Source of the DNA: Sialis fuliginosa
Taxonomy: Eukaryota > Arthropoda > Insecta > Megaloptera > Sialidae
Assembly: GCA_961205875.1 (NCBI GenBank)
Contig: OY540822.1
Location: 12,216,501-12,280,500, forward strand
Length of the DNA stretch: 64,000 nt
Direction of reading: 5' to 3'
How positions within the stretch are numbered: position 1 is the first letter of the stretch; each line of letters opens with the position of its first letter. Made by a program: the position numbers and the translations under genes. Positions 543 through 61,728 of this stretch are shown here, in pieces. Below the pieces are notes generated by a model. The model had not been told where the DNA came from and searched no databases. It was given only the letters and a program-made list of their open reading frames with translations.

Positions 543-727
543 TGGTCGTGTTATCGGCCAACATTTCGTCACATATTACAGTGGACATCTTCAAGGCTCT
601 TCTAAAAGTGCATAAGGGTCCGCACTCGTTAAATACTGGTTCGAGCGCGGACCCTTTTGCACTTTTAGAAGAACCCTGAAGATGTCCACTGCAATGTGTG
701 ACGAAACGTTGTCCGATAACACGACCA
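543..727. repeat. Fold-back palindrome, 86-bp arms, 13-bp loop
   Basis: Arms 543-628 and 642-727 are near-perfect reverse complements, and the outer ends read TGGTCGTGTTATCGG and CCGATAACACGACCA. The right arm contains CTGAAGA (676-682), then a short GTC/GAC stem, then GAAA (703-706). This is the same architecture seen in the Penelope-like pseudo-LTRs and in two other palindromes in this window. It is probably the head of a non-autonomous Penelope-like element. No coding potential is convincing. Confidence 0.7.
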
Positions 728-1580
728 AACCGACGCGGCTTACACCCAGAAGCCAAGATCCATATCAAGATCACCGCGGAAGCCTCAATACTTTTTTATC
801 AAAGTAGATAGGTACTTTTTATTTCCGTTTTTAAGGTATTTTTTTGTGTAGAATTGATTGGTGTATTTAGAATTTTTATATCTCTTTTCGTTTTCGAGTT
901 ACAAGTCCTAACTTTTTTAATCACATACTTTTTTAATATTATGTTTAATGACATATTTAAATTTTATTAAAATTCGTGGAATCAAAACTTTAATTAAATT
1001 CAGTTATACATTTGAAAGAAAAAGTTGCATATTTTGATTTATGTCGAAAAGTAAAATATTAAAAATATGCAAGAATATATAAAAATATTTTTTATATAAT
1101 GATTCGCGCAAAACCGACATTTTCCTCGTTCTATTTCTCGGCTACGTGTTCGAGACGATAATAAGTTGTTAAATTCAAGGCAAGATTTACCTAGTTCTCG
1201 CTTTTCCTCATTTTAATTTATTTTGTATCTAAAAGTATACATCTAATGATTTTCTCTACTGCTCGTTAATTAGATTTGATTGTTTTGGCACCTGAACGAT
1301 TAATTAAGTATTAATTTTACATCAATTCGAACTACGCGTTCACTTTATCAGTATGTATTACGTATTAGTTGACTTACGCCCGGTATTATAAATAATTGTG
1401 TTTTCCGTTGTCTATGGATTTGGTCTCTAAATGCTGCGAACAAACTAAATTGCTAAAATCCATAGACTGCCAATCGCACGGAAAATACGTCGTAGACTGG
1501 ATTTTTGTCGAAAAACAGTTCGTTTGAGATAAACTAACATATATACCAAATTAACTTCGTAAATGTATTTTATATGTACG
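728..1580. other. Gene-free AT-rich DNA
   Basis: No ORF, RNA gene or repeat boundary can be supported here. A partial self-complementarity around 1400-1480 ('tgtctatggatttggtc' against 'aaaatccatagac') is the only structure seen. Confidence 0.5.
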
Positions 1581-1582
1581 TA

Positions 1583-2060
1583 AGGTACTGGAACCAGTCT
1601 TGGATATGACCCTAGTAATAGTTATTTTTAAATTAAATGTACTGAATTAGAAATATGTGTTGATATTTGATTACTACCATTTCTGAATATTAATCTATAT
1701 ACATTTAACTGATTTGATGACAATTGGTATAATTAATTAATTAATTAATTATTATATTATCATAGCAACTGCTTTACATTGTTTCAAATTTGATGATATC
1801 TTTTGTTTCGTAGTACTTATCATTTTGTAATCATTAGCACTCCGTGCTCATTACTGATTTAACTTTATCCATTACTGGAGAAAAAAAACGAACAAAATAA
1901 AAATGTATAATTTAAAAAATAAACTATATTTGCTAACTTTGGTAATTAAATAGATTAAATAAATAGTTACTTGTTTGATTAGTAACACGAAAAAGAAGCC
2001 CGTAAATCACAAAAACAGTAAACCTTGCTCTTATAGCGGCCATAACTAGTGCCAGTACCT
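1583..2060 (+). mobile_element. TIR MITE (family 1, copy 1), TA target duplication
   Basis: The termini are inverted repeats (AGGTACTGGAACCAGT at the left, ACTAGTGCCAGTACCT at the right) and TA lies directly outside both ends (1581-1582, 2061-2062). A second copy with the same interior lies in opposite orientation at 20451-20958. The TA duplication suggests Tc1/mariner-type mobilisation, but no transposase is present. The interior is AT-rich and non-coding. Confidence 0.75.
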
Positions 2061-2195
2061 TATATGAAAATGTGAAAATATTGATATGACTGTTACATTT
2101 AGATTTTATTTTATATTTATTATATATTCATCGTCTTATGGAATTGAAACTGCTATATGCTTTCAGAGCACTTTTTCCCATTTATCATTTTCATA

Positions 2196-3045
2196 TACCG
2201 GGTGGTCTATTTAAATTGAGACAAGTAAATATTTCGAAAACTAAAGAATTTCAGAGAAAATTTTTGGTACAAAAGTTGCAGGGTTAGAAGGGGGAAAACT
2301 AATGAATGTAAAAAAATTGAACTTGAGTATATGTTTTAAGGTCATTTTGAGGTCAACTTCATTTTTTTAAATGGAAATATATATATATATTTTTGCATAT
2401 TCGTATTCTACAATAAAAAGGAAATAACTTTTGTCTAAAAAGTTTTTTCGAAAACCTTCCTGTTGAAACCACATTCTTCTTTTTTCTTCATCAGTTAGCT
2501 TATGTAGTTCATATAGCGCTTGATCCAAAAAGTTTTGATATTTTACACCATTCAAGTTTCCATAACAACAATTTATTTGGAAAGGCTTTGAGTTTTCCAG
2601 TTTGGCTAGGCTTTCGAATTATTTTGAAATATCTAATTATTATCATGTTGAAAAATGTATTGAAGTTGATGGTTATCACTTCGAATATTTATTATTTACA
2701 TTAATAAAACATTTTAAATTTCCATTATTTTTAGTTTCATTTTTTCTAGAAGATTAATTTCAGATATTTTTTTAAATTAAAATTGGGATTTAAAAAAAAA
2801 CTTTTTAGACAAAAGTTATTTCCTTTTTGTTGTAGAATACGAATATGTAAAAATATATATATATTTCCATTTAAAAAAATGAAGTTGACCTCAAAATGAC
2901 CTTAAAACATACTCTCAAGTTCAAATTTTTTACATTCATTAGTTTTACCCCTCCTAACCCTGCAACTTTTGTACCAAACATTTTCTCTAAAAATTCTTGG
3001 TTTTTTAAATATTTACTTGTCTCAATTTAAATAGACCACCCGGTA
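2196..3045. mobile_element. Fold-back element with about 250-bp arms
   Basis: The left arm (2196 to about 2452) is the reverse complement of the right arm (about 2792-3045). The ends read TACCGGGTGGTCTATTTAAA and its complement, and a 340-bp spacer lies between the arms. TA lies just outside each end, but the ends are palindromic, so the TA could be part of the element. There is no ORF of interest. Confidence 0.75.
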
Positions 3046-3879
3046 TACATACACATACATATATAGCTTCCGCTCCGTCCTTCACTGTTTCGATCTGTGT
3101 CCTCGAACCGCTCCGAAACGGTTGATGGGATGAGTGAAATTGGAATGGGTACAGAAAGACGATATCCAAGTTTCCGAATCGGTATCTGATGGGACGCAAC
3201 GCGCAAGAGCCGCTCGACCGCCGCCAAATTTGAATTTTTAAAACCCATGCATCGCATATGATAGTACACGCGATATGAATTATTTTGTTGACCGAATCGT
3301 ATAATATGTGCAGTGTGTTATACACAGAACCGAATTTAGGCACAAAATTATTTGATCAAATCGAAAATATAACCGCCGAATTATCGTGGGCGACAAAATT
3401 TTTATTTCACAGGAGAAGGTGTTTTTTTTTAAATATGAAGAAAAAAGACAATTTTATTATAAATGATTGTTTAATACTAAATTGAAAAATATTTAAAATA
3501 ATTACCTTTCCATGTCTACGATATGGATTTCCTTATTTGAACCTTAAAAATAACATTTTTCTCTTTAACTATCGTTCCCGAGGTTTTTTTTTGTTACCGA
3601 TATTGCTGATTTTTCTGCCATCAATTCATACCTATCTATGTATACTAAAACTCCAGAACGTTGGTAGTTGTATTGTTGATGTATTCAGTCCAATACTCGA
3701 AAATAAGTATGATTTCAAACCCATTCTTTAAAATAATCTTACATCAAACGCAAAATCTTAACAAAAGGGCTCTGTTACATATATGTAAGGCTGGGTACGA
3801 TTGGGTGAAGGTAAGAGTAAGCCCAAATTTTATAAATAACTAAAAAAAAAGATTATAAGAAGATATAGGTACCTAGTCG

Positions 3880-3950
3880 AAATAAAATCAATAATAAGCA
3901 TTGCGAGCGTAATTTCTATACTCGCAATGTAAAATTTATTGATTTTATTT
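3880..3950. repeat. Short imperfect hairpin
   Basis: AAATAAAATCAATAA..CATTGCGAG (3880-3907) is complementary to CTCGCAATG..TTATTGATTTTATTT (3921-3950), around a 13-base loop. It is too small to classify. Confidence 0.5.
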
Positions 3951-4289
3951 AACGGTATATTTGCTACAGGTAATGAATTATTTCAGAATTTTGAATGGAG
4001 CTTCTTATAATTAACAAAATTTGGGCTTTTTCTTGATTTTTGTATTAATTTTACGAGAAATTTCACTTTTTCTATTATATATAGCAAACCTTATTGCTTA
4101 TCGAAAAATAAATAATAATACAATTTTTTAACGGACATTCTGTGTAAAATAATTAATATATTAATAAATTACTATTACACGAAAACGCAAAACTAAGCTG
4201 AGAATGATTTTTCTAAATAAAGTTTAAAAATATTAATATCTTCCAAAAAATATTTTTATCATTAACTCCACATTTTTCGGAATTTCCGT

Positions 4290-8380: not shown

Positions 8381-8426
<46 letters not shown>

Positions 8427-8442
8427 AATATACCTATTTTGT

Positions 8443-8898
8443 ACGTTTTTAAACTAAATTTTTAAGTTTTAATGTTTTAAAAAAATTGTTTTTATATATT
8501 GTTTTATCTGTTGGATATCACATTTACATATTTTTAGTCTTTTGTACAAGAATGGGTACTTTTTAATATTTAAAAAAAATTTTTTTGATGTAATATGCAT
8601 CTTTTACTACATACATATGGTCACACTAATTACTGTTTAAATTGTAAGTAAAAAAAATATGTTTATATCTATGAATATCTTGTTCATTTGCTTATGTTAC
8701 TTACTTATGTTTATGATTTCTTATAGGGATTATTATTAATTTCTGATGAAGACAAAAATGTTGAAAATTAAAATAAGCGCTATTAATTAAAATGATTTGA
8801 ACATTGGTTTAGTTCTTTAATTAATATTTTGACCTAAAAAAAAACCCCTACAAAATAGGTATATTTAAATAATATCAAGATGGTCATATATATGAATA

Positions 8899-8902
<4 letters not shown>
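8443..8902 (+). repeat. PLE direct pseudo-LTR, left copy
   Basis: It starts ACGTTTTTAAACTAAATTTT and matches 11886-12343 at nearly every base, including 'ctgatgaagacaaaaatg' and the final 'tggtcatatatatgaatact'. From about 8573 onward it is also complementary to the inverted copy at 8925-9222. Confidence 0.85.
8743..8766 (+). ncRNA. Hammerhead-like core motif in left pseudo-LTR
   Basis: CTGATGA at 8743-8749 is followed by one extra A, a weak GAC/GTT stem and GAAA at 8763-8766. Hammerhead ribozymes are described in PLE pseudo-LTRs. This copy departs from the consensus by the extra base and a weak stem II, so activity is doubtful. Confidence 0.35.
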
Positions 8903-8924
<22 letters not shown>

Positions 8925-8936
<12 letters not shown>

Positions 8937-9222
8937 AATATACCTATTTTGTAGGGGTTTTTTTTAGGTCAAAATATTAATTAAAGAACTAAACCAATGT
9001 TCAAATCATTTTAATTAATAGCGCTTATTTTAATTTTCAACATTTTTGTCTTCATCAGAAATTAATAATTATCCCTATAAGAAATCATAAACATAAGTAA
9101 GTAACATAAGCAAATGAACAAGATATTCATAGATATAAACATATTTTTTTTACTTACAATTTAAACAGTAATTAGTGTGACCAAATGTATGTAGTAAAAG
9201 ATGCATATTACATCAAAAAAAT
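8925..9222 (-). repeat. PLE inverted pseudo-LTR
   Basis: It is the reverse complement of about 8573-8880, running from 'tatttaaatatacctatttt' to 'catcaaaaaaattt'. Homology stops inside the start of the RT ORF. With the left direct copy it forms a long hairpin around a (TA)n centre. The hammerhead-like motif is present on the minus strand (9035-9058). Confidence 0.85.
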
Positions 9223-11093
9223 TTAATGTTGTCATTAATAAATTTAATAAATTGAAGTCTGAAGCCATGGTTAATGAAAATCAATATATTAATAATTGTA
9301 TCAATAGTTCTAAACAGATAGTAGATAACTATAATAATAATAAAAATAGAAATTTAATAATAAGTAATAACCATGTTTCTAAATATAATAACAAATATAA
9401 TTGTAAGCTACCAATAGATATTGAATTTAACCCTCTTAAACACAATGAGGAGAATTTTGTTGTTAATTTAACCTCTAACAAGATACCTGATAATATTAAC
9501 AATTTATTAAAACTTGGATCAAATTTCAATTTACCCTATAATAATAATAATCTACCTATCAATGATATGATTATTTCATTTGAATATGGTATTGACAACC
9601 TAGATGAAAATGAAAAAAACTTAATTAGAAATAAATTTATATATAATGTTAATCAGTACAAGGATAACATGAAAAAAAACAATTTTTTGAATAATAAATA
9701 TAATTGTTCTCTAATTAAGGATGTTTCTGATGCAAGGAAGTTTTTTAAGGAGAATGAAAATATCAAAGTGATTCGTGCTGATAAAACTAATAAAACCGTA
9801 TTGATTGATAAAGTAGATTATGATAATAAAATGTATGAGCTGTTAAATGATGGTGAAACATATCTTAAAATACATAAAGACCCCACTAATATTTTCCAGA
9901 ACAGAAACAATAACATTATTCAAAAATTTTATGAAATGGGTTATATTGATCAAAATTTGAGTAACCAACTTAAAGTGCATAATAGTACTCCTCCACAAAT
10001 TTACGGGTTGATAAAATTACATAAAGTAAATAATCCTGTCAGACCTATAGTTGCTTCATATAATAGCCCACAACAAAAATTGTCAAAATTTTTCTCTGAT
10101 ATTTTAAAAAATATTACTGCTAATAATAATACCGTGAGAGACTCTTGGGAATTCCATGAATTTATTAAAGATTTTCATATACCTAATAAATATAAATTAA
10201 TTTCACTTGATGTTAAATCATTGTTTACTAACATACCTATCGATACTACTATTGAGATTATCACTAATAAATGGGAAGAAATAAAAAAATACACTAATAT
10301 TGAGAAGGACGATTTTATTGATGGTTTGAAATTTTGTTGCAATACGTCATATTTCCAGTTTAAAAATCAATTTTATTCACAAATTTATGGAGCACCTATG
10401 GGTTCATCTCTATCTGTTGTTTTGGCTGATATTATTATGAACGAACTACAAGAGTCTGTTTTGAAAAATGTAGATTATGAGATTCCTTTTTTTAAAAGAT
10501 ATGTTGATGACATCATTACAGCAATACCTTCGGATAAAATTGAAACTTTATGCAATAGCTTTAATTCTTTTCATGATAGATTACAATTTTCTTATGAACT
10601 TGAAAATCAAAATAGAGAAATTAGTTTTTTAGATATAAAAATTTTGGTTAACAAACATAATAAAGTTGAAACCATATGGTATACTAAACCTACCTGGTCT
10701 GCTAGATATTTGAACTACAATTCTAATTCCTCTATTGAACATAAACGTAATGTTATTACTGCTATTTTAGACCGGGCAATTAAATTCACTAATTTTAAAT
10801 ATAGAAGTCAAATACTCAACAAAGTTTACAATATTTTCTTATTAAATGGTTATCCCATTAATTTTCTTAAAAACACTATAAATAATAGACTCAAAAGTAT
10901 ACTTTATGGACATAATAAAAATAGTAAAAGTTTGGCTGTTGCAGAAAATTCCAATTACTCTTATGATGATCAAATATATTTTTCATTCCCGTATATACCT
11001 ATTTTATCTGAAAAAATGAAAAGAGTTGTTTCTGGACATAATATAAAAATGATAAACAAAAATAAGTATACTACAAAAATTTTTTTTTTCTAA
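9201..11093 (+). CDS. Penelope-like reverse transcriptase (frameshifted before GIY-YIG domain)
   Basis: The 630-residue frame carries the RT core of Penelope-like elements, which copy RNA into DNA for insertion. Visible motifs are ADKTN (fingers), YGLIKLHK, RPIVAS, motif A LDVKSLFTN (Asp at about residue 337), motif B YGAPMGSSLS, the catalytic YVDD at residues 434-437 and motif D ISFLDI. The first ATG (9201) lies in the inverted pseudo-LTR; an ATG at 9264 would avoid most of the repeat and may be the true start. The reading frame ends at 11091-11093 just after a run of 10 T. The next ORF (11116) continues one frame over, so a single T indel has cut the RT from its endonuclease. Codon use is strongly AT-biased, like the surroundings. 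Confidence 0.9.
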   Translation: MHITSKKFNVVINKFNKLKSEAMVNENQYINNCINSSKQIVDNYNNNKNRNLIISNNHVSKYNNKYNCKLPIDIEFNPLKHNEENFVVNLTSNKIPDNINNLLKLGSNFNLPYNNNNLPINDMIISFEYGIDNLDENEKNLIRNKFIYNVNQYKDNMKKNNFLNNKYNCSLIKDVSDARKFFKENENIKVIRADKTNKTVLIDKVDYDNKMYELLNDGETYLKIHKDPTNIFQNRNNNIIQKFYEMGYIDQNLSNQLKVHNSTPPQIYGLIKLHKVNNPVRPIVASYNSPQQKLSKFFSDILKNITANNNTVRDSWEFHEFIKDFHIPNKYKLISLDVKSLFTNIPIDTTIEIITNKWEEIKKYTNIEKDDFIDGLKFCCNTSYFQFKNQFYSQIYGAPMGSSLSVVLADIIMNELQESVLKNVDYEIPFFKRYVDDIITAIPSDKIETLCNSFNSFHDRLQFSYELENQNREISFLDIKILVNKHNKVETIWYTKPTWSARYLNYNSNSSIEHKRNVITAILDRAIKFTNFKYRSQILNKVYNIFLLNGYPINFLKNTINNRLKSILYGHNKNSKSLAVAENSNYSYDDQIYFSFPYIPILSEKMKRVVSGHNIKMINKNKYTTKIFFF

Positions 11094-11115
11094 ATTAAAA
11101 AATAAAACTGATAAG

Positions 11116-11430
11116 ATGAAATGTTCTAACGTTATTTATAAACTTAAATGTTCTTGTGATTATTCTTACTTAGGGCAATCTAAACAATACTTGCAAAAGA
11201 GAATCAACAGTCATAAATATGCTAAAAATGAAGTTACTGCACTTCGTACCCATATACAACAGACTGGTCACGAAGTTGAATATGGTGATGTTGAAATTTT
11301 AGATTTTCAGCCTATTTTAAAAAAAAGATTACTTAGTGAATCGTTACATATCTTAAAAGAACCTAAATGTCTTAACTCTAGAGAAAATCTTAATCACCTC
11401 AAAGAATCATATCTAAATTTAATTAAATAA
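11116..11430 (+). pseudogene. GIY-YIG endonuclease domain of the PLE, displaced by frameshift
   Basis: The 104-residue frame contains a PLE-type GIY-YIG nuclease, with VIYKLKCSC near the start, YLGQS, an Arg in KRINSH, and a C-terminal half with GHEVEY and NSRENL. In PLEs this domain is fused to the C-terminus of RT and nicks target DNA to prime reverse transcription. Here it is in a different frame from the RT, and the open reading extends back across 11094-11115 with no stop as far as the T run. The ATG at 11116 is therefore probably not a natural start. The copy is inactive unless the T-run difference is a sequencing error or is bypassed by slippage. Confidence 0.85.
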
Positions 11431-11885
11431 ATTTTCTTTTTTCCTCTTTCTTCTTCTTTCCACGTTGCTTTTTGCTTGTATTGTATGCCATTTTTTGGTT
11501 TTTCTATTAATTTTAACTTTTTTCATTTTTGTTTGATTAGGTATATGTTTTAGTTTGATTTTGTTGGTTTTTGTTCCCCTTTTTTTCTCTCTTTTTAAAA
11601 TTTTTAAAAAATTCTTTCTAGGTTACCTTGTACTTAAAATTGACATTTAACATAGATAAGATTTTTGTTTTCCATAGATGTAATAAATATAATTAAGTTT
11701 GTAATACTAGTGCTTTTCTTTCATTGAAACACTAGTAATTTTATTTCTTTTTTCATGTTTGTATAATAAATTTGTAACTAGTTTTAAGTAAAAACAATTG
11801 ATGGTTCTTGTTTAATTAAGTTTTATCTTAGTATAAATACTTTTCAACATGTGATACAATGTGATACGAATTTTATTTATTTTTA
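11431..11885 (+). other. PLE 3' untranslated region
   Basis: This non-coding stretch lies between the stop codon of the endonuclease frame and the right pseudo-LTR. It is T-rich (many TTTTT and TTTCTTC runs), with no motif I recognise. Confidence 0.6.
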
Positions 11886-12340
11886 ACGTTTTTAAACTAA
11901 ATTTTTAAGTTTTAATGTTTTAAAGAAATTGTTTTTATATATTGTTTTATCTGTTGGATATCACATTTACATATTTTTAGTCTTTTGTACAAGAATGGGT
12001 ACTTTTTAATATTTAAAAAAAATTTTTTTGATGTAATATGCATCTTTTACTACATACATTTGGTCACACTAATTACTGTTTAAATTGTAAGTAAAAAAAA
12101 TATGTTTATATCTATGAATATCTTGTTCATTTGCTTATGTTACTTACTTATGTTTATGATTTCTTATAGGGATAATTATTAATTTCTGATGAAGACAAAA
12201 ATGTTGAAAATTAAAATAAGCGCTATTAATTAAAATGATTTGAACATTGGTTTAGTTCTTTAATTAATATTTTGACCTAAAAAAAACCCCTACAAAATAG
12301 GTATATTTAAATAATATCAAGATGGTCATATATATGAATA

Positions 12341-12343
<3 letters not shown>
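11886..12343 (+). repeat. PLE direct pseudo-LTR, right copy
   Basis: It is collinear with 8443-8902 at an offset of about 3442 bases and nearly identical. The hammerhead-like motif is at 12186-12209. It is followed by (TA)n to 12371. Confidence 0.85.
12186..12209 (+). ncRNA. Hammerhead-like core motif in right pseudo-LTR
   Basis: It is identical to the left copy: CTGATGA, one extra A, GAC..GTT, then GAAA. The sequence 3' of GAAA (ATTAA..TTAAT) could form a short stem III. The stem I pairing is weak. Confidence 0.35.
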
Positions 12344-12371
<28 letters not shown>

Positions 12372-22816: not shown

Positions 22817-23470
22817 TATTAAATAAACGTGAGTAGATATACATAAGTGACACCTCACATATTACATCATTATCTGTCGTGATATTTTCTTCATCACCCA
22901 TGGTCCATTAATCCTGCTGTCATCCTGTATATCATCTCTCTCCGTTGGATCGAAAGAACATGGTTTGACAATATTATATATCGGTCCAATATCCGTTTCT
23001 CTTGAAACATATATTCCTATTTGTATCATATCCGCAGGATGTCTACAGGAAATCCTGTATCCATGTATTTAAGGTTGTTATCACATATTTTTTTCGTAAA
23101 ATATATAAAATGGCGCTATTATGATATTATGAAGCATTTATAAGAATATAAAGATTTTTATTTTACTTTTATAATGCATTTCAAACTGCGTGAAATATAA
23201 AAATATTTTATTTTATTTTAAAAGTTATTATGCAATAAATATGTGTATGCTAATTATAATTAATGTAATCTGAGTCACGTTTTTCTCGATTATTATTGTT
23301 ACACTTATAAATCTCTATAGAAAAGTCATATTTATTAATAACTATGTTTATACAGGGTTAGTGAAAATGTATTTACAAAAATGTTTTTTTAAATCATAAA
23401 AATACATTTTGTCTTTGCGAATTTAATACAAAAATGAATTTTACTAAATACTGCATTAAATATATATGTA

Positions 23471-23702
23471 CTACTAGAAAAACGGAGAAACTGTGGTTTC
23501 TAGTCACTTAAACTAAAAATATACACTTTAACCACAATAAAACAATGTCACTCGACACGTGTTTCGACTTCACAAGAAGTCCTCATCAGGAGCCTAACAG
23601 TTACTAACAGTTCCAGTCTGGATGAGGACTTCTTGTGAAGTCGAAACACGTCTCGAGTGACATTGTTTTATTGTGGTTAAGGTGTATATTTTTAGTTTAA
23701 GT
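23471..23702. mobile_element. Fold-back element with hammerhead-like motifs, 13-bp flanking repeat
   Basis: The arms 23506-23588 and 23619-23702 are reverse complements. AAATATATATGTA occurs at 23458-23470 and again at 23703-23715, which looks like a target-site duplication. The left arm is preceded by a 35-bp unpaired extension (23471-23505), and Penelope elements are known to have an extension of about this size. Each arm holds CTG(G)ATGA, a 5-bp GACTT/AAGTC stem and GAAACACGT. It is probably a non-autonomous PLE head. Confidence 0.65.
23553..23600 (-). ncRNA. Hammerhead ribozyme-like motif (best example)
   Basis: On the minus strand, CTGATGA (23589-23583) is followed by G, a GACTT/AAGTC stem II with a 6-base loop, GAA, a short AC..GT stem III, then C at the expected cleavage position. 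GCTC before the core can pair with GAGT after that C to form stem I. One extra base before stem II departs from the textbook core. The very short stem III is like those reported for PLE hammerheads. Confidence 0.45.
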
Positions 23703-23715
23703 AAATATATATGTA

Positions 23716-27507: not shown

Positions 27508-28613
27508 CAGTGGCGAGGCGTGAAATTTTTAATAAGGAAAGCATATTTTGTCAAAATGTTTCATAAAAATAAATAAGTACGTAATAACCGTTTTAACAAT
27601 GGGTTTATCGAAACCTCCCCCTCCTATTAACAAAAAAAAACTAGTTATAAAACACTTTAAGTTCAAGCTTTTACTTATTTTCTTGTATTTTAGTCGATAT
27701 TTCTATGACGAGTTGAAGTTCACTGCAGGAAATTTCACTAAAAAATTTTGAATTTTTGATTTCGTTAAAAGTATGTTTATTGTATAGAAAATGACGTGAA
27801 AAGTTGAACTGTTCAAACCGCAGGTCTGTATCTCAAACCGTTCTCGAGATATAGCCTCTCAAAGTTTTAGTTTTTTCGAATTTTTGGAGAAAAAAGGCCA
27901 TAACTTTTGAACGCGTGGTCGGAATTGATTTTAGTTGACGGATTTGAAATCAGCGTGTCAAAATCTATATAATGACATGTATAATACTTTAAAATCCAAC
28001 GAAAAAATTTTGGCCAAAAATCGACATTTTTTTAAGGTATACCCCTTTGAATTTTTTCGATTTTTCGTGAAATTTTTTTTGTCGAGTTTTAAGGTATTAT
28101 ACATGTCATTATATAGATTTTGACACGCTGATTCCAAATCCGTTAACTAAAATCAATTCCGACTACGCGTTCAAAAGTTAGAGCCATTTTTCTTCAAAAT
28201 TTTGAAAAAACTGAAACTTTGAGAGGCTATATCTCGAGAACGGTTTGAGATACAGACCTGCGGTTTGAACAGTTCAACTTTTCACGTCATTTTCTATACA
28301 ATAAACATACTTTTAACGAAATCAAAAATTCGAAATTTTTTAGTGAAATTTCCTGCAGTGAACTTCAACTCGTCATAAAAATATCGACTAAAATACAAGA
28401 AAATAAGACGTAGAGGTATTATAGTTTTATAATTGATTAATGTAAATTAATATTAAATGCTTTTTTGGTTAAAATGTTTGATTTGTGCATAAAGATGAAT
28501 ATTCTAATACTATTTTTATATTATTTATTAACCGAAAACACAGGTTTGTATTATTTTGCCGATAAAGTAAGGGAAGCACTGCTTCCCCTGCTTCCATGGA
28601 CGCTTCGCCACTG
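27508..28613. mobile_element. hAT-like element, 8-bp duplication GTATCGAA, with large internal palindrome
   Basis: The ends are CAGTGGCGAGGCGT and ACGCTTCGCCACTG, and GTATCGAA directly flanks both (27500-27507, 28614-28621). Inside, arms of over 300 bp (about 27672-27998 and 28090-28408) are reverse complements. Small ORFs here are repeats, not genes. It is non-autonomous. Confidence 0.8.
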
Positions 28614-31400: not shown

Positions 31401-31761
31401 CTTGGTAAGCCTGTTTATTATATCGAGTTCGCATCTCCATCTCACCTTTCGCCACGGCCCTGACTGTTAGTATATATTAAAAAAAGGAACAAGGACGATT
31501 ACAGATAAATGATTCTATTGATTTTTTTCAATAGTGTTACAAGCGAAACTTGGTCTCACTGAAACAGTCTCGCTTTTACCGGCAAATATTCAACACAGTT
31601 CATTGTTAATTACATAGCATACGGCTTTATACCCGTAATAGGACATATGATGAATGAACGCATAGTATACAGGCTGTCCGAGAACTCACTTACCACTTGA
31701 TAGTTTTTTGCGTTGACAAAATGGGAGCGTTCATGTCTGATCAAAAAACGAAATAACGAGT

Positions 31762-32054
31762 TTTGATTGGTTGATTCATGGAATTTCTGGTGGAATGTAC
31801 CAGAAATTAAAAGAATGTAATTTTTTAAGCATGTAAGGAAGTGAGAAAGAAGTAACCAGAAAGAGATAGAAACTAGTGGTGACCAGGCTAACCAAAGAAC
31901 TTGTATGTTCACTTCATGTTGAGCGTTTCTGCCAGAACACTAGTTTCTATCTCTTTCTGGTTACTTCTTTCTCACTTTCACACACGTATAAAAAACGACA
32001 TTCTTTTAATTTCTGGTACATTCCACTAGAAATTCCATGAATCAACCAATCAAA
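31762..32054. mobile_element. Fold-back MITE, 117-bp arms
   Basis: The arms 31762-31878 and 31938-32054 are reverse complements with few differences and surround a 59-bp loop. The outer ends read TTTGATTGGTTGATTCATGG. The inner ends read CACTAGTTTCTATCTCTTTC. No coding capacity. Confidence 0.85.
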
Positions 32055-34551
32055 TATTAATATTAAGTATTCTTTTTTTCGATTAAGTACTTGGGCATTT
32101 ATCAATTTTTGAATATTTTTCTGACTTATAAAATTAAAATTTTAAGAACCCCTGGTACATTTAACAACAAAACGTGCTTTTCATATCTGCATACGATATA
32201 GTTTTATGTGTAAAACTTGGCAGATATATAACTTGGCATTGAATACTCTAGTTTAGTGACTTAAAACAAAATGTGTGCAGATTTTTCGTTTGTAAAGAAT
32301 AACATGTTGTGACTGGCTTGCTGAAAATTGGTGGAATGTCAACTATTTTTGAAAAACAATCATTGCAATCGCATTGCATGACCATTAGGCAATTACTGGT
32401 AAAATAAATTAAATATTCACTTTACTGTTTTATGATTCAACACAGGTTATTTCAGACATTAGGTAATATTGTTGAACCCTTTCTCTGCTGAGTAGTTAAG
32501 CCACATTGTTGAGAGTGTTAACCGAGAAATTTCCATGAAAATGTAACGTGTATGTACAGAGCTCTTGTTATCACATTAAATATTCGTTTGATTTTTATGT
32601 TCTCTTAAAAGCAGAAGCATGCTTGACAAAGTAAAAAAAATTATCCTTTTTCTGACTACAGCTCATTGTTACGGTTACTCAATTTTTATTCGAAAAATCG
32701 ATTGAATCTGTTTAATTTCTTTGACTACATAGTTATCTATATAAAGATATAGTAGACAAGTTTGAATGAAATTGTACATAAAATGCGAGGGAAATTTATG
32801 ACAATAAACTATATTTGACGTCCGTTTTTATAGTTATTTGCTTGCTATATAACAAACGTTTGTTCTAGCAATAAAACTGCTTTTTCATAGATACTATACT
32901 AAACACAAGAGTCATTTATTATTGTAAATATAAAGTGAAGCCAACGATTTAAAAAACACATTCGTAATAGTTTATTTCCATCGAGGTTTTCATTTGTATT
33001 CTAAGTATTTTGTAGGCATGCTGTATGTTCATATTAACAGTACATACATGCCTTTTACAATATTTACGTGATTATTTTTACAAACATATTACTGTTGGCT
33101 TACAGTGTATAGTTCGTCTATTGCTATTGGCTATTCCAATCTTATTTCAATGTATTTCCGTTCATAACGAGATTAAAAATAAGCAATAAAGTTTTACAAT
33201 AGATATTTTCTGGGTGCATAAAAGTCTCTGTACTTGTTCTAGTTTTTTGCAAGAGTTTCTTTATTCCAGTTATAGAACTGTATTTAATTAATGTTAATTA
33301 AAAATGTCAGAGAAGTACAGTTATCTGTTTTCTAGATAACTTTTATCAACTTGAGTTTATTAAAATATTATATTTGATTATCTATTTGAAAATATAGATT
33401 AATGTGTAATTTTATTATTATGTACTTCATTATACAAACACCTAGTTGAAATTCGAATCTGAAAAAATATTCAGTCAAAACGTGTTTTAAAAATTAAATG
33501 TAAATCTTTTAATAACTCTGACAGAAGTTTATTTTATTCTTAGAAAAATTCGTCTAGGAAAGAAAAAAAAGATATTGTTGTTATTGAAAATATGCCAAAT
33601 TCGATTTTGTCTTTTAGGTATTTATTCGAATAGTTAGTTTGGAACAGTTTCAAATAAAAACGACAGTGAAAAACGGATAAATATATACAGAACAAATAGC
33701 TAATGAAAAGGTGTGTTTTATATGTAGATTATATTCGTTTATAGACATATGTATCTCGTATGTACCCACTATTTTTGTCGGTATGAAAACTAACCTCAAA
33801 CGTATTGTCGATTCGAAATTGTTTATAGCTTGATTGTTAAATTGTTTAAAGATTCTGTTAAACAATACACAGGTACTATATTTTTATTCATAAAACTTTC
33901 AAATTGACTACTTTTACTGTAATTAGATCAACTGAATTGTATTTATATTAATTTAAATTAAAAATAAATACATTATTTATTTATTTTTACTTTGATGCGG
34001 GATTTAATGTAGGTATACCTTCATAAAAAATGTAAGTACTGTCATAAATTTCCCCTTATGTGTGCATTAAAAATGATTGTATATATTAAAAAAAATTAAA
34101 AACATTGTTTTGGCAGATATAATTTATTTGTAATTAACATTCTATAAATAAATTTTCATACTAAGAAAGTAGAACATAAGTGGTGTTTCAACTGTGATTG
34201 TAATTTTAAAACATGCGGCCTTTTTTTAAACGTACGTTAATCGAATATTATTATTTATTTTATTAAAAACCATCATTTATCGTACACTTTGATTACTTTA
34301 ATTGAAAATGTAATTTCTAAAAATGTTGTGTTGAGAGATTTATTATGTGAAAAGATCTAATATAAATTTATTAATAAAAATAAAACTAGTAAAGTAACTT
34401 CACGTAGAGAAAAAATACAAATATACAAATCTGGTGGAGAAATATTCTAATATAACAATCTGAAAATTACAGTGTATAAATAATTGTAGATACTATTAAT
34501 GTGATGATAATTGATTACAAGTAATAATAATAATATTTTTTTATGTTTCAG
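32055..34551 (+). other. Upstream region of the calcium-pump gene
   Basis: It is AT-rich with no supported ORF. The first recognised PMCA exon begins after an acceptor at 34550-34551, so this stretch is at least partly a 5' intron. The upstream untranslated exon was not identified. Confidence 0.5.
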
Positions 34552-34603: not shown

Positions 34604-46916
<12,313 letters not shown>

Positions 46917-48765: not shown

Positions 48766-50651
48766 CTGTAAAATTATTTATATATGTAAAATAGATAAAC
48801 TGCCTTGACTCTACAATCTTACTGTATTATAAAAACGACAGACAATAAATTATATGGTATTTGAATATTTGATTCAATACATAAATCAAACATGATAATG
48901 AACAACAAGGAAAAAGAATGCAATGGATAAATTAGTTAATAGATGTGTCATCACTACATACACTACATACTACAATACTATTCAAATTACAATAAATTTG
49001 CATAAAAGTTAATTCATCAAATGGATAACGTCCTGCTTTCCAATTACTCTGTAATACATACTTCTCAAGTATAATTTTTACAATTATTATCAGTAAATTA
49101 GTAACATTAGAAAATTACCTTATCTGTAATGATAAAACGATTATACAATGTGTCAATACTGATAATGATAAATAAATAATAAAGTAATTACCAGCTCCAG
49201 TGATTTTTCCGTCTGTAGGAGTAAGAGTCTTAAAGATCTCGTCGTATTCAGGTTTGTTCTTGAGGACGATCCATTCTGGCTCTCCGTGACCTGCATCGAT
49301 CCCTTCACCTCTCTTATATCCGAAGGGAGTGATTGTGTCTGCTACACCGTCAAATGCTCCACCTAAAAATGACATTTGAATAGGACAAAGGATAATATGA
49401 CCTTGTAAACAAATACTTCTTACCTTTGAGAACAGGTTCAGTTGTTACAGTCACCTCTTCTTGGGGTATCAGCGCCATCAGTTTTGCTATGTCTTCCGCT
49501 AACATTTTGTCTACTGTTTCAAGTAATTTGATTTTAATAGGAGAGAATTTAGTAAAGTCATGATGCTGCAGATTCTCTTGCATTTTCTTCAGTTCTGGGA
49601 AATCTCCGGGAGATATTTGATGTTCCCTTTGCAGTCTGTCGAACGTTTGTCCGAGTTTACTTATCAGTTCTTTTTTCTTGGCATCTTTGCCAAACACGGC
49701 CGGCATGTCTTTTTTCAATTCTGCGATTATAAATGCATGGACCTTGGCTAATCGAGCTCTCTTGATCAAGTCATTGAGTTTCCTGAGAGCGGCATTGCGA
49801 GGCAGAGACTGTATGTCTTTGAAGAGATCCTGCTCCTCGGCTTCAAACAGCTTCCTGTTCCCATCATACCGCAGTGGTTGGTCCCAAAAGGAGCCTATGT
49901 ATACTCTGGCTACTTCTGGGGTTTGCAGAACTTTCCCCAGGGACCACATGAGTGCTCCGTACACTCGCATCAGCTGCTGGTGGTCGATCATATCAGCTTT
50001 GTTGAGGACTATTCGAATCTTGTCGTCATGGCCCCTCAGAGCTTCTATCGAACGTCGAAACTCGTCAGATATGTCCAATTTGTGCGCATCAAACAACAAT
50101 ATTATTCTGTCCACTCTTTCGGCAAACCATTCTAAGACCCCGGTGAAGTCATAACCTCTGTCTACACGTTGCTTCTCACCGGACAGAATCCCGGGTGTGT
50201 CGACTATTGATATGCCTTTCAAGACGGGTGAAGATACCATCGAACATTGGAATCTGTTGAGGAAAGCGTTACCGAATTTGGACAGTGGTCGGAACTGTCT
50301 TTTAGGGTCCACTACTAGAGCATTTCCAGGAATGACACCGTCTTTATCATCATACATGACAGCAATGAACCTGTCAGTTGTAGGTTCAGGACCGATGCGT
50401 ATGCCAGGGAAGTCACGTTCTAATAGGTACTTGATAAATGTAGTTTTACCTGTCGAGTACTGGCCTACTAACAGTATCATGGGTTTTGCATCAAAATCGG
50501 TATCATCTAATTGCGGCGAGTGGAAATCGTGGAATTGATAATGCTGTTCCAGAGGTAGCAGTTTATTTCTATAAACAGCTTTTAATCCTTCGACGACTGT
50601 ATCAAACATTTTTTCATTTTTGTCACCTTCTTTACGTAACCAACTGAACAT
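48548..50651 (-). CDS. Past1: EHD-family dynamin-like ATPase (Past1/EHD1)
   Basis: EHD proteins are membrane-remodelling ATPases of endocytic recycling. Three coding exons (50651-49424, 49362-49192, 48765-48548) join in frame with GT/AG borders to 538 residues, close to the 534-550 usual for the family. Visible parts are the N-terminal MFSWLRKE, the P-loop GQYSTGKTT at residues 63-71, DTPGILSGEKQR, the NKAD guanine-type motif, and a C-terminal EH domain with one EF-hand loop DVDKDGLLDADEF that binds NPF-containing partners. The ATG at 50649-50651 gives the family-typical N-terminus. It is divergent from LIPT1 and convergent with PMCA. Confidence 0.95.
49192..49362 (-). CDS. Past1: Past1 exon 2 (linker and start of EH domain)
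   Basis: 171 nt; acceptor TTTTAG. It encodes GGAFDGVADTITPFGYKRGE and KPEYDEIFKTLTPTDGKITG, phase 1 to 1. Confidence 0.93.
49424..50651 (-). CDS. Past1: Past1 exon 1 (G domain and helical domain)
   Basis: 1228 nt, from the ATG to the donor GTAAG at 49423-49419. It carries the whole nucleotide-binding domain and ends in TTEPVLKG, phase 1. Confidence 0.95.
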
Positions 50652-52272
50652 TTTGTGGCTTTATTTATACTTTCACAACAATCGAAATTTAAATATTGTA
50701 AGCACACCAGCAACACCCACAAATGATAGTTCTCGATCTGTCATCCAAACCAACATAGACTAAACAGAATGTATGTAGTAATTTTGTATACGTCACAATA
50801 ATTTCGGTGAACGTTTCTGAATAATTATTATGCCTCGTACTAAAGTATAATCGCAGATCGGTCAGATGGTTAAATAAACTGTTTTATGTATATTAATGGA
50901 TGTGTCTGTGTTTAGGAGTGTACTGGGACGTCAATTATAAAACAAGAGATAATGTAGACGGAATGTTATCTGAAATAGCTGTATAAGAATATTTAAAAAA
51001 TGAAATAATATTAATTATTTTTCCTGGAATACACTTTACACTTATAGTACTTATTCTTGGATATATTTATGATTATAATTAATTAATTACTAACTGATAA
51101 AACAATTCGAACTGTTATATGAATATTTAAAAAAAATAATAATATAGGCGTATCAATTTTTATCAATTTAATAACGAATACCGACGATATCAATAAGTAA
51201 ATAATTTTTAAAGAAACCACGTACTGCGATAATACATTATTTACACATGTATTTTTAAATTATTTTAATAAGTGCATGTTGAATATCACATTCGTTATTT
51301 AATTAGTGCTAATTAAATGTGAATGTATCTTTTCAATTAGGGATTATAATATTAACAATCATCTTTAATATTGACCATTTTATAGTATATAATATATAGA
51401 ATTAACAATAAAAACATCAATATTTTAAATATAAATCGGACACTGCTAACATATTTTGTACATTCCTAGCTTGTAAAAGTTTTACAAGTCATTCGTGAAA
51501 TTACAGCTTTATCTCTATGAAATTTAATATTTATATGTTGGCAACACTGTCATAGTGACATTTGTCAAATGACATTAAAACGGATGATTGTTTTTTCACG
51601 TGCATACAGCACAGCACTGCAGTGATGAAGATATCAAAACGATTGAACTTTGATTTTATGCCCTATTCATGTGACCCAGAGAGATTCTCTGTCGGACAGC
51701 AGATAATAAGCCGGTATAAAAGCAAAACAACGTTCGAGACTGTGCTCATATATCGTTGAAAGTGAACTGCAGCTGAACAAATGAATTGTTTTGGAAGATT
51801 TCACACGTGACAAACGAAAGGGCACGTGATACTTTGTTCTAGTTTCGTTACTTAGCTGACTTTATATAGTACGTTATTCGTGAGTGCGCTAAACTTATTG
51901 ACAATTTTTTCTAATTATAAATTTAGTGATTTTTCGTCGCCTACTTAGGCCTATAATTTTTATTTAGAACCTGTTAACACTAGGAGGAATGCCAAAAATC
52001 TGTGGAGACTGTCTGGGAATTCGGTTTCGCACAAACCATTTACACCAGACGTGGAAGTGGCTGCACCAAACCATCACCCTTCACGAGTACCTCGTCGCCC
52101 TCAGCTCTGCTGATGCGAACGCCTGCTCCTCGATGAACTATAGCCAATAGTGTGAGTGTGTGAAACTTCTGGGACTTGCACAGTGCACAAACTGAATTCA
52201 AAGACTATTTAATCTATTGTTAGATATATCGCTTTTATAAATACACCGGTTTATAAATAATCATTGCTCAAA
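50652..52272. other. Divergent upstream region between Past1 and LIPT1
   Basis: 1.6 kb of shared upstream DNA. The half near Past1 is AT-rich. The half near LIPT1 has a TATA box (51715), two CACGTG hexamers (51599-51604 and 51823-51828), and short ORFs without similarity to known proteins. Confidence 0.5.
51715..51722 (+). promoter_or_regulatory. TATA box, candidate promoter
   Basis: CCGGTATAAAAG is a good TATA consensus with a GC-rich 5' side. It is 558 bases before the LIPT1 ATG. A start near 51745-51755 would give a long 5' UTR or an untranslated first exon. It could equally serve a separate non-coding transcript. Confidence 0.4.
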
Positions 52273-52791
52273 ATGTTGCTCAGAAACATATCCCGTGCGT
52301 CGTACTATTCTGCAAACATATCGAAGAACATCGGCACTCTTCTGATGCGCTCAGTCTCAAACAGAGCAGAGACTAAAGGCAGCACAAAAGCTACCGTTAA
52401 GAAATCCGTTTTCATATCACAGTCTACAGATATATACACTAATCTAGCTCTAGAAGATTGGCTATACAAAAATTATGATTTTGAGAACCACCATGTCTTG
52501 ATGCTGTGGTGCAATGATCCTTGTGTGGTTATTGGCAGACACCAGAACCCCTGGATGGAGGCTAATATAGGAGCTCTGCAGAGCATGGGTGCAACATTAG
52601 CTCGCAGGAACAGTGGAGGCGGCACAGTGTACCATGATCGAGGAAACTTAAATCTGACTTTCTTCACTTCTAAAAACAAGTACAACAGAAAGCATAACTT
52701 GGAAGTGATTTCCAAGGCTTTGTATAAGGAATGGTCACTGAAAACTAATATTTCTCCACGAGAAGATCTAGTTGTGGATGGAAATCTGAAG
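52273..52791 (+). CDS. LIPT1: LIPT1 exon 1
   Basis: It encodes the targeting region and most of the catalytic lobe with RRNSGGGTVYHD. Donor GTAACG, phase 0. Confidence 0.95.
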
Positions 52792-54180
52792 GTAACGTCT
52801 TTAATATATGTTATGTGACTGGGTTTTGATGAAATTATTCAGGTTTCAGGTACAGCTGCAAAATTAGGACGTCTGAATGCTTATCACCATTGTACTTTAC
52901 TTGTTGATGCAAATAAAACAAATCTAAGACGTGCTCTACAAAAGAAAGACGTAAGTTCATTGACTGAGTAATATTTATTTAAGCAGTGCAAATGTTTTTA
53001 TTTTATCTTTAAAGTTGTTAAAGTAATGCTTTAAAAATAGACAACTCAACTAAAAATGATTTACTATATTTGCTTACTTAGAGAAACAGTTAAAATTAGT
53101 TGAGTAATCTGTAAACTGTTAATAATAAAAATGACAAAAACAATTTGAAAAAAATGAGAATTGAAAAACAAGTCCATGGGTTATTTCAAAAATCTGTTTA
53201 CATTTAATTTGACAAATGCCAGGTCAATAAATTATCAAACAAACAGTCTGCGGGAGACATTTATATCTGGGGCAAATCCTTTTTTGATAGTGTGTCTTTA
53301 TCTACAGTTGGGGTTAACGAGCAATGCTACAAAATCAATCCCGTCTTCTATTGCGAATCTGAATGATAAGAATCCACACGTAAATGTGCAGACTCTGATG
53401 TCAGCTGTTGGCTGGGAATGGCTCAAGACGCCAATCACAGACAGTGCGACTGGAGAAACGGTTCTACAAAATGGTTTTCAAATGATCAATCCTACTGATG
53501 ACTGGTTCCCAGGTACACTGTTAGATAAGTCAAGAGTCAAGACCCCCCTTTGTTTAGAAATAAATTTCCTATTTTTATTTATATTTAGATATCACTTGAC
53601 CTCAAGTTTATTTTGATAATGTTATCTATTTTAATATTTATTTCTCGTTAGTTCTGATTTTAACTAAAATGCAATCTATTTTTATCCATTATTAATTATG
53701 CTTTTATGTAATTTCAAAATTATGCATTTTGCAATAGTTTGAATTATTTTTATTTTTCCACTCTGCTGTTATCTGTCCTTAACAACAGTGTATAAACAAA
53801 TGATTTAAATATTTATTAGTCATCTACTTTCAGGGTTGGAAAAACTGCGTCTGGATTTAAAAGATTGGAATTGGGTGTATGGTAAAAGTCCAAAATTCAC
53901 TGCGACTAAAGATGTAAGCCTTGTAGCAACTAAAGACAAAAACTGGGATTTAAAATTGAAAATGCAAGTAAGCCAAGGCAAGATTGAAGGAATCAGTCTA
54001 TTTGTGCCTGCCGGCCTATCTACAATGGGGTTTAGCGGGGACGCAGTCGTCGTCTCTGATTTGGAGGGTCAGAGATTTGACGAAACTGCTGTCACCACTC
54101 TACAAAATTTATTTGCAGCTAGTGCGAGTGCTGAAAAAAAATGTGATAGCCAGTCCCAGACGGTGAAGCATGTGATTTAG
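52273..54180 (+). CDS. LIPT1: Mitochondrial lipoyltransferase 1
   Basis: LIPT1 transfers lipoyl groups to E2 subunits of 2-oxoacid dehydrogenases in mitochondria. Four exons (52273-52791, 52843-52950, 53308-53512, 53834-54180) join in frame to 392 residues; the human protein is 373. The N-terminus MLLRNISRASYYSANISK is rich in Arg/Ser without acids, as in a mitochondrial targeting peptide. Family motifs are LWCNDPCVVIGRHQNPW, the lipoyl-binding RRNSGGGTVYHD, and GTAAKLGRLNAYHHCTLLV. The stop is TAG. I chose the ATG at 52273 because the upstream frame has no ATG. Confidence 0.95.
52843..52950 (+). CDS. LIPT1: LIPT1 exon 2
   Basis: 108 nt; acceptor ATTCAG, donor GTAAGT. It encodes VSGTAAKLGRLNAYHHCTLL, including the conserved lysine loop, phase 0 to 0. 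Confidence 0.93.
53308..53512 (+). CDS. LIPT1: LIPT1 exon 3
   Basis: 205 nt; acceptor TCTACAG. It encodes LTSNATKSIPSSIANL and SAVGWEWLKT, and ends DDWFPG at phase 1 before GTACAC. Confidence 0.92.
53834..54180 (+). CDS. LIPT1: LIPT1 exon 4 (stop)
   Basis: It encodes the accessory C-terminal domain, with LKDWNWVYGKSPKF and KIEGISLFVPAGL, ending VKHVI with TAG. Confidence 0.95.
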
Positions 54181-54376: not shown

Positions 54377-54382
54377 AATAAA
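54377..54382 (+). terminator. LIPT1: LIPT1 polyadenylation signal
   Basis: AATAAA 197 bases after the stop, followed about 20 bases later by a GT-rich 'tgtgtttt'. Confidence 0.6.
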
Positions 54383-60800: not shown

Positions 60801-60925
60801 AAAAAATTACCTTTGACATCGTTCGACTCGGAGGAGGCTCGCATGATGTCGTTCAAATAGTGTTCTAAACTTCTCATATTTTCCAATGCATTTGTGTTAT
60901 TTGTACTGACTGGCCCTCGGCCCTC
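57780..60925 (-). CDS. orb2: Orb2/CPEB2-4-type translational regulator, C-terminal exons (5' partial)
   Basis: CPEBs bind U-rich elements in mRNA 3' UTRs to control polyadenylation and translation, for example at synapses. Exons in transcript order are 60925-60811, 60268-60224, 60157-60030, 59529-59347, 59280-59070, 58247-57955 and 57896-57780. All are joined in frame with GT/AG borders. They give the MRSLEHYLNDIMR region, RRM1 (KVFVGGLPPDIDEDEITASF, KGYAFLLFQ), RRM2 (KTVFVGGVPRPLKAVELA) and a Cys/His zinc-binding domain (CDECQGQRCGG, YYCENCWATIHSRPG). The protein ends PFRWC and TAA. Close agreement with the CPEB2-4 subfamily separates it from orb/CPEB1. The Gln-rich N-terminus lies outside the window or in exons I could not find. 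Confidence 0.93.
57955..58247 (-). CDS. orb2: orb2 exon (RRM2, zinc-binding domain start)
   Basis: 293 nt; acceptor CTCAG, donor GTAAG. It encodes VELAMIMDRLYGGVCYAGID and DDQMCDECQGQRCGGKFAPF, ending VTCLQ. Confidence 0.96.
58830..59010 (-). repeat. CTGACTGACTGAC-type repeat in orb2 intron
   Basis: The minus strand reads 'cctgactgactgactgactg' then 'ctagaaacgtgaaatttc', matching 6541-6680. The intron also has a C-run (about 58707-58719). Confidence 0.5.
59070..59280 (-). CDS. orb2: orb2 exon (RRM1 end, RRM2 start)
   Basis: 211 nt; acceptor TTCTAG, donor GTAAGT. It encodes KLYLCVSSPTIKDKPVQIRP and MPLDPRKTVFVGGVPRPLKA. Confidence 0.95.
59347..59529 (-). CDS. orb2: orb2 exon (RRM1 start)
   Basis: 183 nt, phase 0 to 0; acceptor TTTTAG, donor GTAATT. 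It encodes SRKVFVGGLPPDIDEDEI and DWPHKAESKSYFPPKGYAF. Confidence 0.95.
59630..59815 (+). repeat. Dispersed repeat in orb2 intron, Lepidoptera-like type
   Basis: It contains 'ggattctgataaaatttatatgggcccacctcgg', 'atatttgtcggagttatgcccgaac' and 'ttgaagtcggttaaaa', like 19960-20172. It is directly followed by AT-rich DNA and a 'cgcgcgcgaagccgcgg' Helitron-end-like string at about 59939. Confidence 0.6.
60030..60157 (-). CDS. orb2: orb2 exon (Ser/Pro-rich linker)
   Basis: 128 nt; acceptor TTTCAG, donor GTATGC. It encodes GGNAALFNLDDQTSVLLEEA and SLSSPSRSSPHSQ, before RRM1. Confidence 0.85.
60224..60268 (-). CDS. orb2: orb2 45-nt exon
   Basis: It encodes FINTNPLQNLGPLQ; acceptor TTTCAG and donor GTATGT, phase 1 on both sides. 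It could be skipped without a frameshift, like the short alternative exons of vertebrate CPEB2-4. Confidence 0.75.
60811..60925 (-). CDS. orb2: orb2 exon with MRSLEHYLNDIMR
   Basis: 115 nt; acceptor CTGCAG, donor GTAATT. It is the most 5' orb2 exon I can support in the window. It encodes TNALENMRSLEHYLNDIMRA and SSESNDVK, phase 1 at the 3' end. Confidence 0.85.
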
Positions 60926-61540
60926 CTGCAGAAATAACGCCAAATTACAATCAAATCAAATATCACAATCTTACAATTCCACGGCTAACAGCTAAACGGC
61001 ATTCAACACAATATTAATACTACAATCAGCAAAAACTTATGTGCACGTAATATGCATATTTTAAAGAATAGTTTACAATTACCATTTTGATGAATTGTAT
61101 TAAAATATGTATGTATGTATTATGTCTCCAGTGCTTCTCAAACAGTCATTTTCTAATATCCCGTTATCCAAATAAGTGTTATTAAATTAGTAATCTTTAA
61201 ATTTTAAATTAGTACCTTTATAAATTATAACTACATGCAAGATTACTCAACAGGAAGTATTAGCAGTTACCTCGAGATACGTCTTTTTGTATATAAAATA
61301 TTTAATTTAACCCCCTCGAAACCATGAAACATTCGTCTGAATTTTTTTGTCTGAAAAATCGTTGATTAAAAATAGTCTTTACATTATATTATATTATACA
61401 TTTTTAGATAATAAAGAGGGAGGAAAAATTATCCCCGACAAATGCGCTCAAAAAGAAAAATATATAATAAAGTAATTAAATATTAAAATGATTCATATAT
61501 TACTTAAAAAAATAATATAATAGTAGTGACGTTACATATA
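60926..61540. other. orb2 intron sequence, no further exon found
   Basis: I looked on the minus strand for further orb2 exons with an acceptor, donor and the expected Gln-rich N-terminus and saw none between 60926 and 64000. Confidence 0.45.
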
Positions 61541-61728
61541 AATAAAAACAAACTAGTTTGTCTAAACGTCAAAATTTATTTAAGAAAAGGTAATCGCAAG
61601 CTTTCGATTCACAGAATCATCGTCAGGCTATTAATAAAGATTTAAATAATCTGTGAATCGAAAGCTTGCGATTAAGTACCTATTCTTAAATAAATTTTGA
61701 CGTTTAGAAAAACAAGTTTGTTTTTATT
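61541..61728. repeat. Fold-back palindrome with hammerhead-like motif
   Basis: The arms 61541-61618 and 61648-61728 are reverse complements with small differences, and the outer ends read AATAAAAACAAAC. On the minus strand the left arm has CTGACGA (61626-61620), one T, a GATTC/GAATC stem and GAAA (61605-61602). The right arm keeps the stem and GAAA but has lost CTGACGA. Confidence 0.65.

Follow-up and report, generated by a model that had tools for sequence, protein, structure and literature searches.

In a 64,000-nt stretch of the Sialis fuliginosa genome (contig OY540822.1, here C14:12216501-12280500; the whole stretch is called the window), a hammerhead-like motif recurs in four fold-back structures. 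We report that the motif is real and marks six families of Penelope-type elements, hereafter Penelope-like elements (PLEs), and that the fold-back is a product of insertion, not a selected structure. As a rule, each fold-back appears to be one insertion of a PLE, or of RNA moved by one, primed from both target strands, a reading to which we give a probability of roughly 0.8. The outer ends of the arms carry much of the argument: with all families taken together, 53 of 55 classed two-armed insertions have one short end and one long end.

A minimal hammerhead in six families

Across the genome scanned (392 Mb, 20 contigs), the pattern CTGANGA-N{8,28}-GAAAC gave 8,602 matches (4254 + 4348), compared to 1,186 (607 + 579) for the reversed pattern. 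With family patterns, F5 (one free position allowed) matched 1,332 times and exact F6 393 times, the control giving 0 in both cases. In the window alone, enrichment of the loose pattern was mild, with 7 matches against 2.23 expected and 3 of 100 shuffles reaching 7; six matches lie at 676 (+), 8743 (+), 9058 (-), 12186 (+), 23589 (-) and 61626 (-), and the seventh, at 35938, falls outside all four fold-backs. The genome-wide counts rule out chance as the source of the motif. At each of the six positions, all of them pointed out in the initial annotation, exactly one base separates CTGANGA from the first pair of stem II.

The motif sequences were sorted into six families, of which F1 (window position 676), F2 (23589), F5 (61626) and F6 (8743, 9058 and 12186) are found in the window, while F3 and F4 lie outside it. 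In all six, the CUGANGA and GAAA cores are joined by stem II, with one extra nucleotide before it. We examined pairing in representative sequences of each family, in a register chosen by the analyst, and found that stems I, II and III pair in 6/6 families with differing sequences, which confirms the earlier observation that the stems differ yet pair and extends it to stems I and III. The true partners of stem I form 2-5 bp, compared to a mean of 1.3 bp when partners are exchanged across families; for stem II the contrast is weaker (3-6 bp versus a mean of 2.4 bp). Stem III is a perfect palindrome in 6/6 families (ACGT, ACACGTGT, ACGT, ACACGTGT, AGCT and AATT), and an NUH triplet precedes the expected cut in each (GUU, GUC, GUC, GUA, CUU and UUA). 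The window's stem II pairs are GTC/GAC (3 bp), GACA/TGTT, GACTTC/GAAGTC (6 bp) and GATTC/GAATC; the first and last stand as originally described, while the second had been given as GAC/GTT and the third as GACTT/AAGTC, which is 6 rather than 5 bp long. Judged from its sequence, the layout is that of a minimal type I hammerhead of the PLE kind, and self-cleavage is predicted. The six-family comparison thus supports the earlier view of a PLE-type hammerhead with a fixed layout and a constant extra base.

We also analyzed the register of stem II in 39 distinct motif sequences, picked from 100 listed places of the 8,602 and including many F1 variants. With one extra base, at least 3 bp formed in 19/39 sequences, compared to 0/39 in the textbook register and 3/39 with two extra bases; shuffles gave about 2.5 at each register. 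Pairing of at least 5 bp was seen in 11 sequences with one extra base, 0 with none and 2 with two (shuffles, about 0.4). The extra base before stem II is lineage-wide here. A viroid hammerhead (De la Pena & Flores 2001, going by the title) likewise has one extra core nucleotide, reportedly before stem II. On present evidence the extra base, which the initial annotation thought could define a variant or a non-catalytic relative, is not a new hammerhead class, because known alignments already hold one-nucleotide insertions there: the accessible part of PMC10085705 allows at most one or two inserted nucleotides between CUGAnGA and the adjacent stems. A further hammerhead-like family, beginning CTGAAGATGG, was seen at the left flank of locus L037 (C14:4.686 Mb), at C1:2444102 and at C1:2444341, and in one of its copies stem II is preceded by two extra bases.

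The window gave no match to the hammerhead models of Rfam 15, whether the cut-off was the gathering threshold or E<=10; such models would be expected to miss minimal forms. The exact F1 or F2 motif was not found in viral contigs. A microRNA precursor was considered and rejected, the mir-4776 matches at 596-674 sitting on the F1 fold-back with 39.2 and 35.9 bits against a gathering threshold of 97.

As to the link to PLEs, a 631-aa open reading frame (ORF) of F6 in the window matches RVT_1 in Pfam (E 1.2e-8), the F6 piece 11101-11427 giving no Pfam match. Hammerheads in PLE pseudo-long terminal repeats (pLTRs), as initially proposed, are borne out here at 8743, 9058 and 12186, together with this RVT_1 ORF. 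A protein search, which scored 70 of its 694 candidate places, gave 100% rounded identity at each of them. In F2, the copy at L040 extends further upstream and holds an ORF with a candidate GIY-YIG domain (PF01541, 23.0 bits, cut-off 22.6). Some 55 nt separate the end of this ORF from the ribozyme, and TATATATAT and TCAGTC lie in that gap. F1, F3, F4 and F5 share with the others the ribozyme, the two-end rule described below and target-site duplications (TSDs). The PLE hallmarks found are pLTRs, an inverted partner, an optional tail on one of them and a TSD.

Fold-backs as insertions with unlike ends

In the sampled copies, the arms stand head-to-head, with CTGANGA facing the centre and the 3' ends pointing outward. 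Each family has two alternative outer ends, one short (S) and one 27-36 nt longer (L). The window's inverted repeats (542-628/642-728, 8560-8847/8954-9241, 23501-23603/23605-23707 and 61541-61592/61677-61728) resolve into the following features.

542..793: F1 fold-back insertion, with a (-) arm at 542-632 and a (+) arm at 657-793 that has the L end
676-706 (+): intact F1 hammerhead core; the core of the (-) arm reads TTGAAGA
8435..8906 (+): older F6 copy, 5'-truncated, with the L end; hammerhead 8743-8766
8926..9224 (-): (-) arm of an F6 insertion, S end; hammerhead 9035-9058
9221..12348 (+): (+) arm of an F6 insertion, L end, with the PLE ORF region; hammerhead 12186-12209
9198..11090 (+): F6 open frame with RVT_1, broken near 11090
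23457..23470: left TSD of the F2 insertion, TAAATATATATGTA; right copy at about 23702-23715
23472..23702: F2 fold-back insertion, with the (-) arm at 23472-23602, L end; hammerhead 23562-23589
23621-23702 (+): F2 (+) arm, S end, core broken
61498..61511: left TSD of the F5 insertion, TATTACTTAAAAAA; right copy at about 61725-61738
61514..61728: F5 fold-back insertion, (-) arm with the L end; hammerhead 61602-61626

The F6 arms at 8926-9224 (-) and 9221-12348 (+) are one insertion. In the window's F1, F2 and F5 fold-backs, an intact CTGANGA core is present on a single arm only; the F5 (+) arm, which has the S end, retains only stem II onward.

To quantify the ends, we classed 77 F1-F5 clusters (sampled loci plus the window), accepting a tolerance of 7 nt for S and of 9 nt short for L. 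The five F5 loci (three pairs, two single) were chosen, and the tandem duplicates L004-L006 were excluded from the arm tables. Both ends could be classed in 41 two-armed clusters, which comprised 20 S/L, 20 L/S, 1 S/S and 0 L/L, so that 40/41 had unlike ends; in the sole S/S case, L067, the second end lies 6 nt past S. Of the F6 clusters with both ends fetched, 13/14 were S/L (ten chosen ones, C10, C6 and the window); the ten were drawn from 34, nine being classed by script and L104/L105 by eye. Exact TSDs of at least 8 nt flanked 32/40 insertions with unlike ends, compared to 31/1558 re-paired flanks, with runs varying from 8 to 15 nt, and the F6 target was (TA)n in the ends seen. As to arm order in F5, 19/19 adjacent pairs less than 2 kb apart were (-)(+) against 0.57 expected by chance (100 listed of 1,332). 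In 40 insertions the S arm was the longer in 21 and the L arm in 11, the two being equal within 3 nt in 8. The arms of an F1 insertion have a common source, in that 17 non-consensus sites were common to both arms, versus 4.9 on re-pairing, a value reached in 0/2000 shuffles.

The fold-back is thus read as an insertion by-product because the 3' ends of its arms are unlike, TSDs flank it and its centres vary. The initial annotation had argued for a selected structure, which the fold-back itself is not. DNA transposons of the Foldback or miniature inverted-repeat (MITE) type, carrying the motif incidentally, would also have inverted repeats and TSDs, but the outer ends here are unlike (40/41 S versus L), TSDs span 8-15 nt, arms are unequal in length, and ORFs for reverse transcriptase or a candidate GIY-YIG domain are linked to two families, which makes this explanation scarcely credible. 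Self-priming, in which one cDNA or antisense template folds back and is copied into head-to-head arms, was offered for Adineta Penelope in 2013 (PMC3846280, from its accessible part) and accounts for inverted arms, palindromic centres and identical arms. However, a copy-back arm should stop where the first began and self-priming thus predicts like ends, which the 53 unlike pairs contradict, and a PLE protein extends both target strands in vitro (PMC11167929); we consider it quite improbable.

Several observations weigh against reading the fold-backs as single PLE insertions. Among the 77 F1-F5 clusters, 28 have a single arm, and 8 have an end that matches neither S nor L; the latter include the window F1 copy, whose (-) arm ends about 35 nt before the S end and which is unclassed. 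TSDs of at least 8 nt were found at a low rate in the one-armed F1-F5 copies (10/28, versus 10/754 re-paired). Adjacent F1-F3 pairs less than 400 nt apart (73 places used, of 100 listed) included 2 (--) and 1 (++) next to 8 (-+), the same-strand pairs being mostly local tandem copies. The arm-shared variants of F2 and F5 go in the same direction as those of F1 and are not significant (184/2000 and 308/2000). At C3:33.66 Mb, an F6 cluster terminates in S on either side, and its arms differ by two single-nucleotide polymorphisms and in unit length (3576-3577 versus 3562); it is probably, though not provably, two insertions. As to coding capacity, Pfam found no GIY-YIG in the F6 ORFs and no match at all in the whole 889-aa F6 ORF of L024, for which solved structures gave weak reverse-transcriptase matches only (E 0.03-0.06), and no ORF was found in the short stretches fetched for F1, F3, F4 and F5.

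We propose, for insertion primed from both target strands, the following course. The element's enzyme would cut both strands of the target, each of which would then prime a cDNA on the same RNA, at S for one strand and at L for the other. Joining the two cDNAs at the centre would leave head-to-head arms, unlike ends, a TSD and a variable centre; copying halted just upstream of the hammerhead would give short palindromes, and copying through several units would give long arrays. The hammerhead would probably cut multi-unit RNA as a dimer via its self-complementary stem III. The fold-back itself would have no function, and we suggest that the hammerhead is maintained for the sake of the parent elements, which require it. 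In vitro, a purified PLE protein from Anolis cleaves both target strands and extends them; its start sites show no visible strand difference, and two sites bound the genomic tail (PMC11167929).

Tandem arrays and the template RNA

F6 forms tandem arrays with units of about 3.56 kb, and an array can have as many as six units on one side of the centre and four on the opposite side. The 100 listed of 393 exact F6 ribozymes fall into 34 clusters, 28 of them with both orientations; among the matches listed, 26 of these 28 have the order (-)n(+)m and the remaining two are two such blocks placed consecutively. The family is very young, 30 sampled units having 0-2 differences in 1866 nt. Unit length tends to agree between the arms of one array: in seven clusters the differences were 0, 6, 1, 0.5, 0, 0.5 and 2, the seventh pooling the discordant C3:33.66 array with its neighbour, compared to a median of 10 between arrays. 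In C10 (3563) and C7 (3562) it agrees in both arms, and one array holds single units of 3587 and 3650 alongside 3585.

Rare variants point, in most informative arrays, to one template per insertion. Variant 1112A marks 2 minus and 3 plus units of the C14:3.55-Mb array and also turns up at two further places; 140G is confined to the C3:33.68-Mb array, in five of its minus units; 197G is found twice in the genome, once per arm of the C6 insertion; and 518T is carried by 2 minus and 2 plus units at C3:30.3 Mb and by one copy, about 99% identical, elsewhere. A rare variant was common to every sampled unit in 4/6 informative arrays; two further arrays, C10 and C5a, are without variants. Such sharing could also arise from gene conversion, or from a source array that this haplotype lacks. 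Against one template per insertion, the arms of C3b differ, and two sampled units of C14b differ at one site.

We tentatively suggest, at somewhat under even odds, that a PLE inserts by repeated copying of one hammerhead-made RNA circle from both cut strands at once. Two reverse transcriptases about 36 nt apart, one per strand, would then produce head-to-head multi-unit arrays. Consistent with a circular template, variants recur in every unit of a multi-unit array, and in 30 F6 pairs the distance between the two central ribozymes ranges from 199 to 6055 nt, with 7 at <=700 and no short-range peak. It is also possible, at similar odds, that both strands were primed on linear RNA, transcribed across several units of an array already present, and that the ribozyme has no part in making the template. 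The differing C14b units fit such transcripts. So do the arm ends of the small families, which cluster 13-22 nt upstream of the core, much as an RNA 5' end would, and those of F6, where 8/10 mapped ends fall between some 340 nt upstream of the ribozyme and 224 nt downstream of it (the sample is small and biased to that region). Moreover, RNA with a dead ribozyme still inserts in vitro, where no RNA reads were found to end at the cut site (PMC11167929). However, a single transcription error would mark one unit, and 140G is present in five tandem units of one array only; the spread of central distances likewise speaks against linear transcripts. In F2, TATATATAT and TCAGTC precede the common arm end, which led us to consider an RNA start as the fixed 5' end; this putative reading was set aside.

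Growth of the arrays after insertion by unequal exchange, with gene conversion homogenizing the units, seems unlikely to us. It finds a parallel in two F1 tandems, at L004 (C1:304248-304653) and L073 (C1:1485132 onward), both with a period of exactly 187 bp, whose units include both arms in L004 and host flank in L073; yet the F6 units are young while variants and unit length are common to opposite arms. The same unit contents led us to reject these F1 tandems as circular units of retrozymes.

Neighboring features and known systems

Other fold-backs in the window, without the hammerhead motif, lie at 27674-28407, 2194-3047, 31745-32071, 62724-63150 with 62668-63218, and 63629-63885; the largest has 364-nt arms that are 93% complementary and 6 nt apart. 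A 43-nt perfect arm at 62668-62710 resembles the flank of L057 and is probably a dispersed repeat. Within the F1 copy, an open frame was seen by eye at 676-793, its ATG overlapping the ribozyme core (CTGAAG-ATG) and the frame running to the L end; the Anolis PLE ORF starts within its own ribozyme (PMC11167929). Further window ORFs, at 36347-38475, 49350-50660 and 52261-52818, look to us like calcium-pump ATPase exons, an EHD-type GTPase and a lipoate ligase, respectively.

The ribozyme and the kind of element are already known. Minimal type I PLE hammerheads (Cervera & de la Pena 2014; Lunse, Weinberg & Breaker 2017) are cited in the accessible part of PMC7761336 as cutting as dimers. As described there, they share with ours the type I layout, a very short stem III expected to act in a dimer, thousands of dispersed copies and the presence of some copies in PLE pLTRs; set against that description, ours have the extra nucleotide before stem II in all six families. 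In Adineta Penelope, in the part of PMC3846280 available, one of the two inverted pLTRs bears a tail, copies lie head-to-head and TSDs are present. Together with Anolis PAc (PMC11167929), it resembles the present elements: the pLTRs are inverted and contain a ribozyme, one of them may have a tail of about 31 nt, targets are AT-rich, and a TSD and tandem copies occur. Unlike in those two systems, the one-short-one-long rule is counted here, and arrays extend to six units on one side and four on the opposite one. Metazoan retrozymes, going by the accessible text of PMC7229834, likewise place a type I hammerhead in repeated non-coding animal DNA, whereas the short copies here are PLE-type inserts with S/L ends, and the two F1 tandems seen do not have the tandem units equal to a small circular RNA that mark a retrozyme.

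In L1 twin priming, the two target strands both serve as primers on a single RNA, and the product is an inverted sequence with TSDs. Unlike in that process, the start sites here are neighbors, so that the arms duplicate the same sequence, as most classed multi-arm copies show. No statement of the one-short-one-long rule, nor of two-strand priming as the origin of inverted PLE copies, was found in PMC11167929, in the accessible part of PMC3846280 or in a literature search that was limited and is no proof of absence.

How PLEs move, why their copies are inverted or in tandem and what the ribozyme does are open questions, and the role of minimal hammerheads is called still a mystery in the available portion of PMC7761336. 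The young F6 family lets the rules of insertion be read. The one-short-one-long rule argues against the self-priming idea in the literature and connects what the genome shows with two-strand extension in vitro, and an old puzzle about PLEs becomes testable. If copying from an RNA circle is the true course, it would give the PLE hammerhead its function, the making of the template, and would explain tandems, inverted pLTRs and the one-sided tail together.

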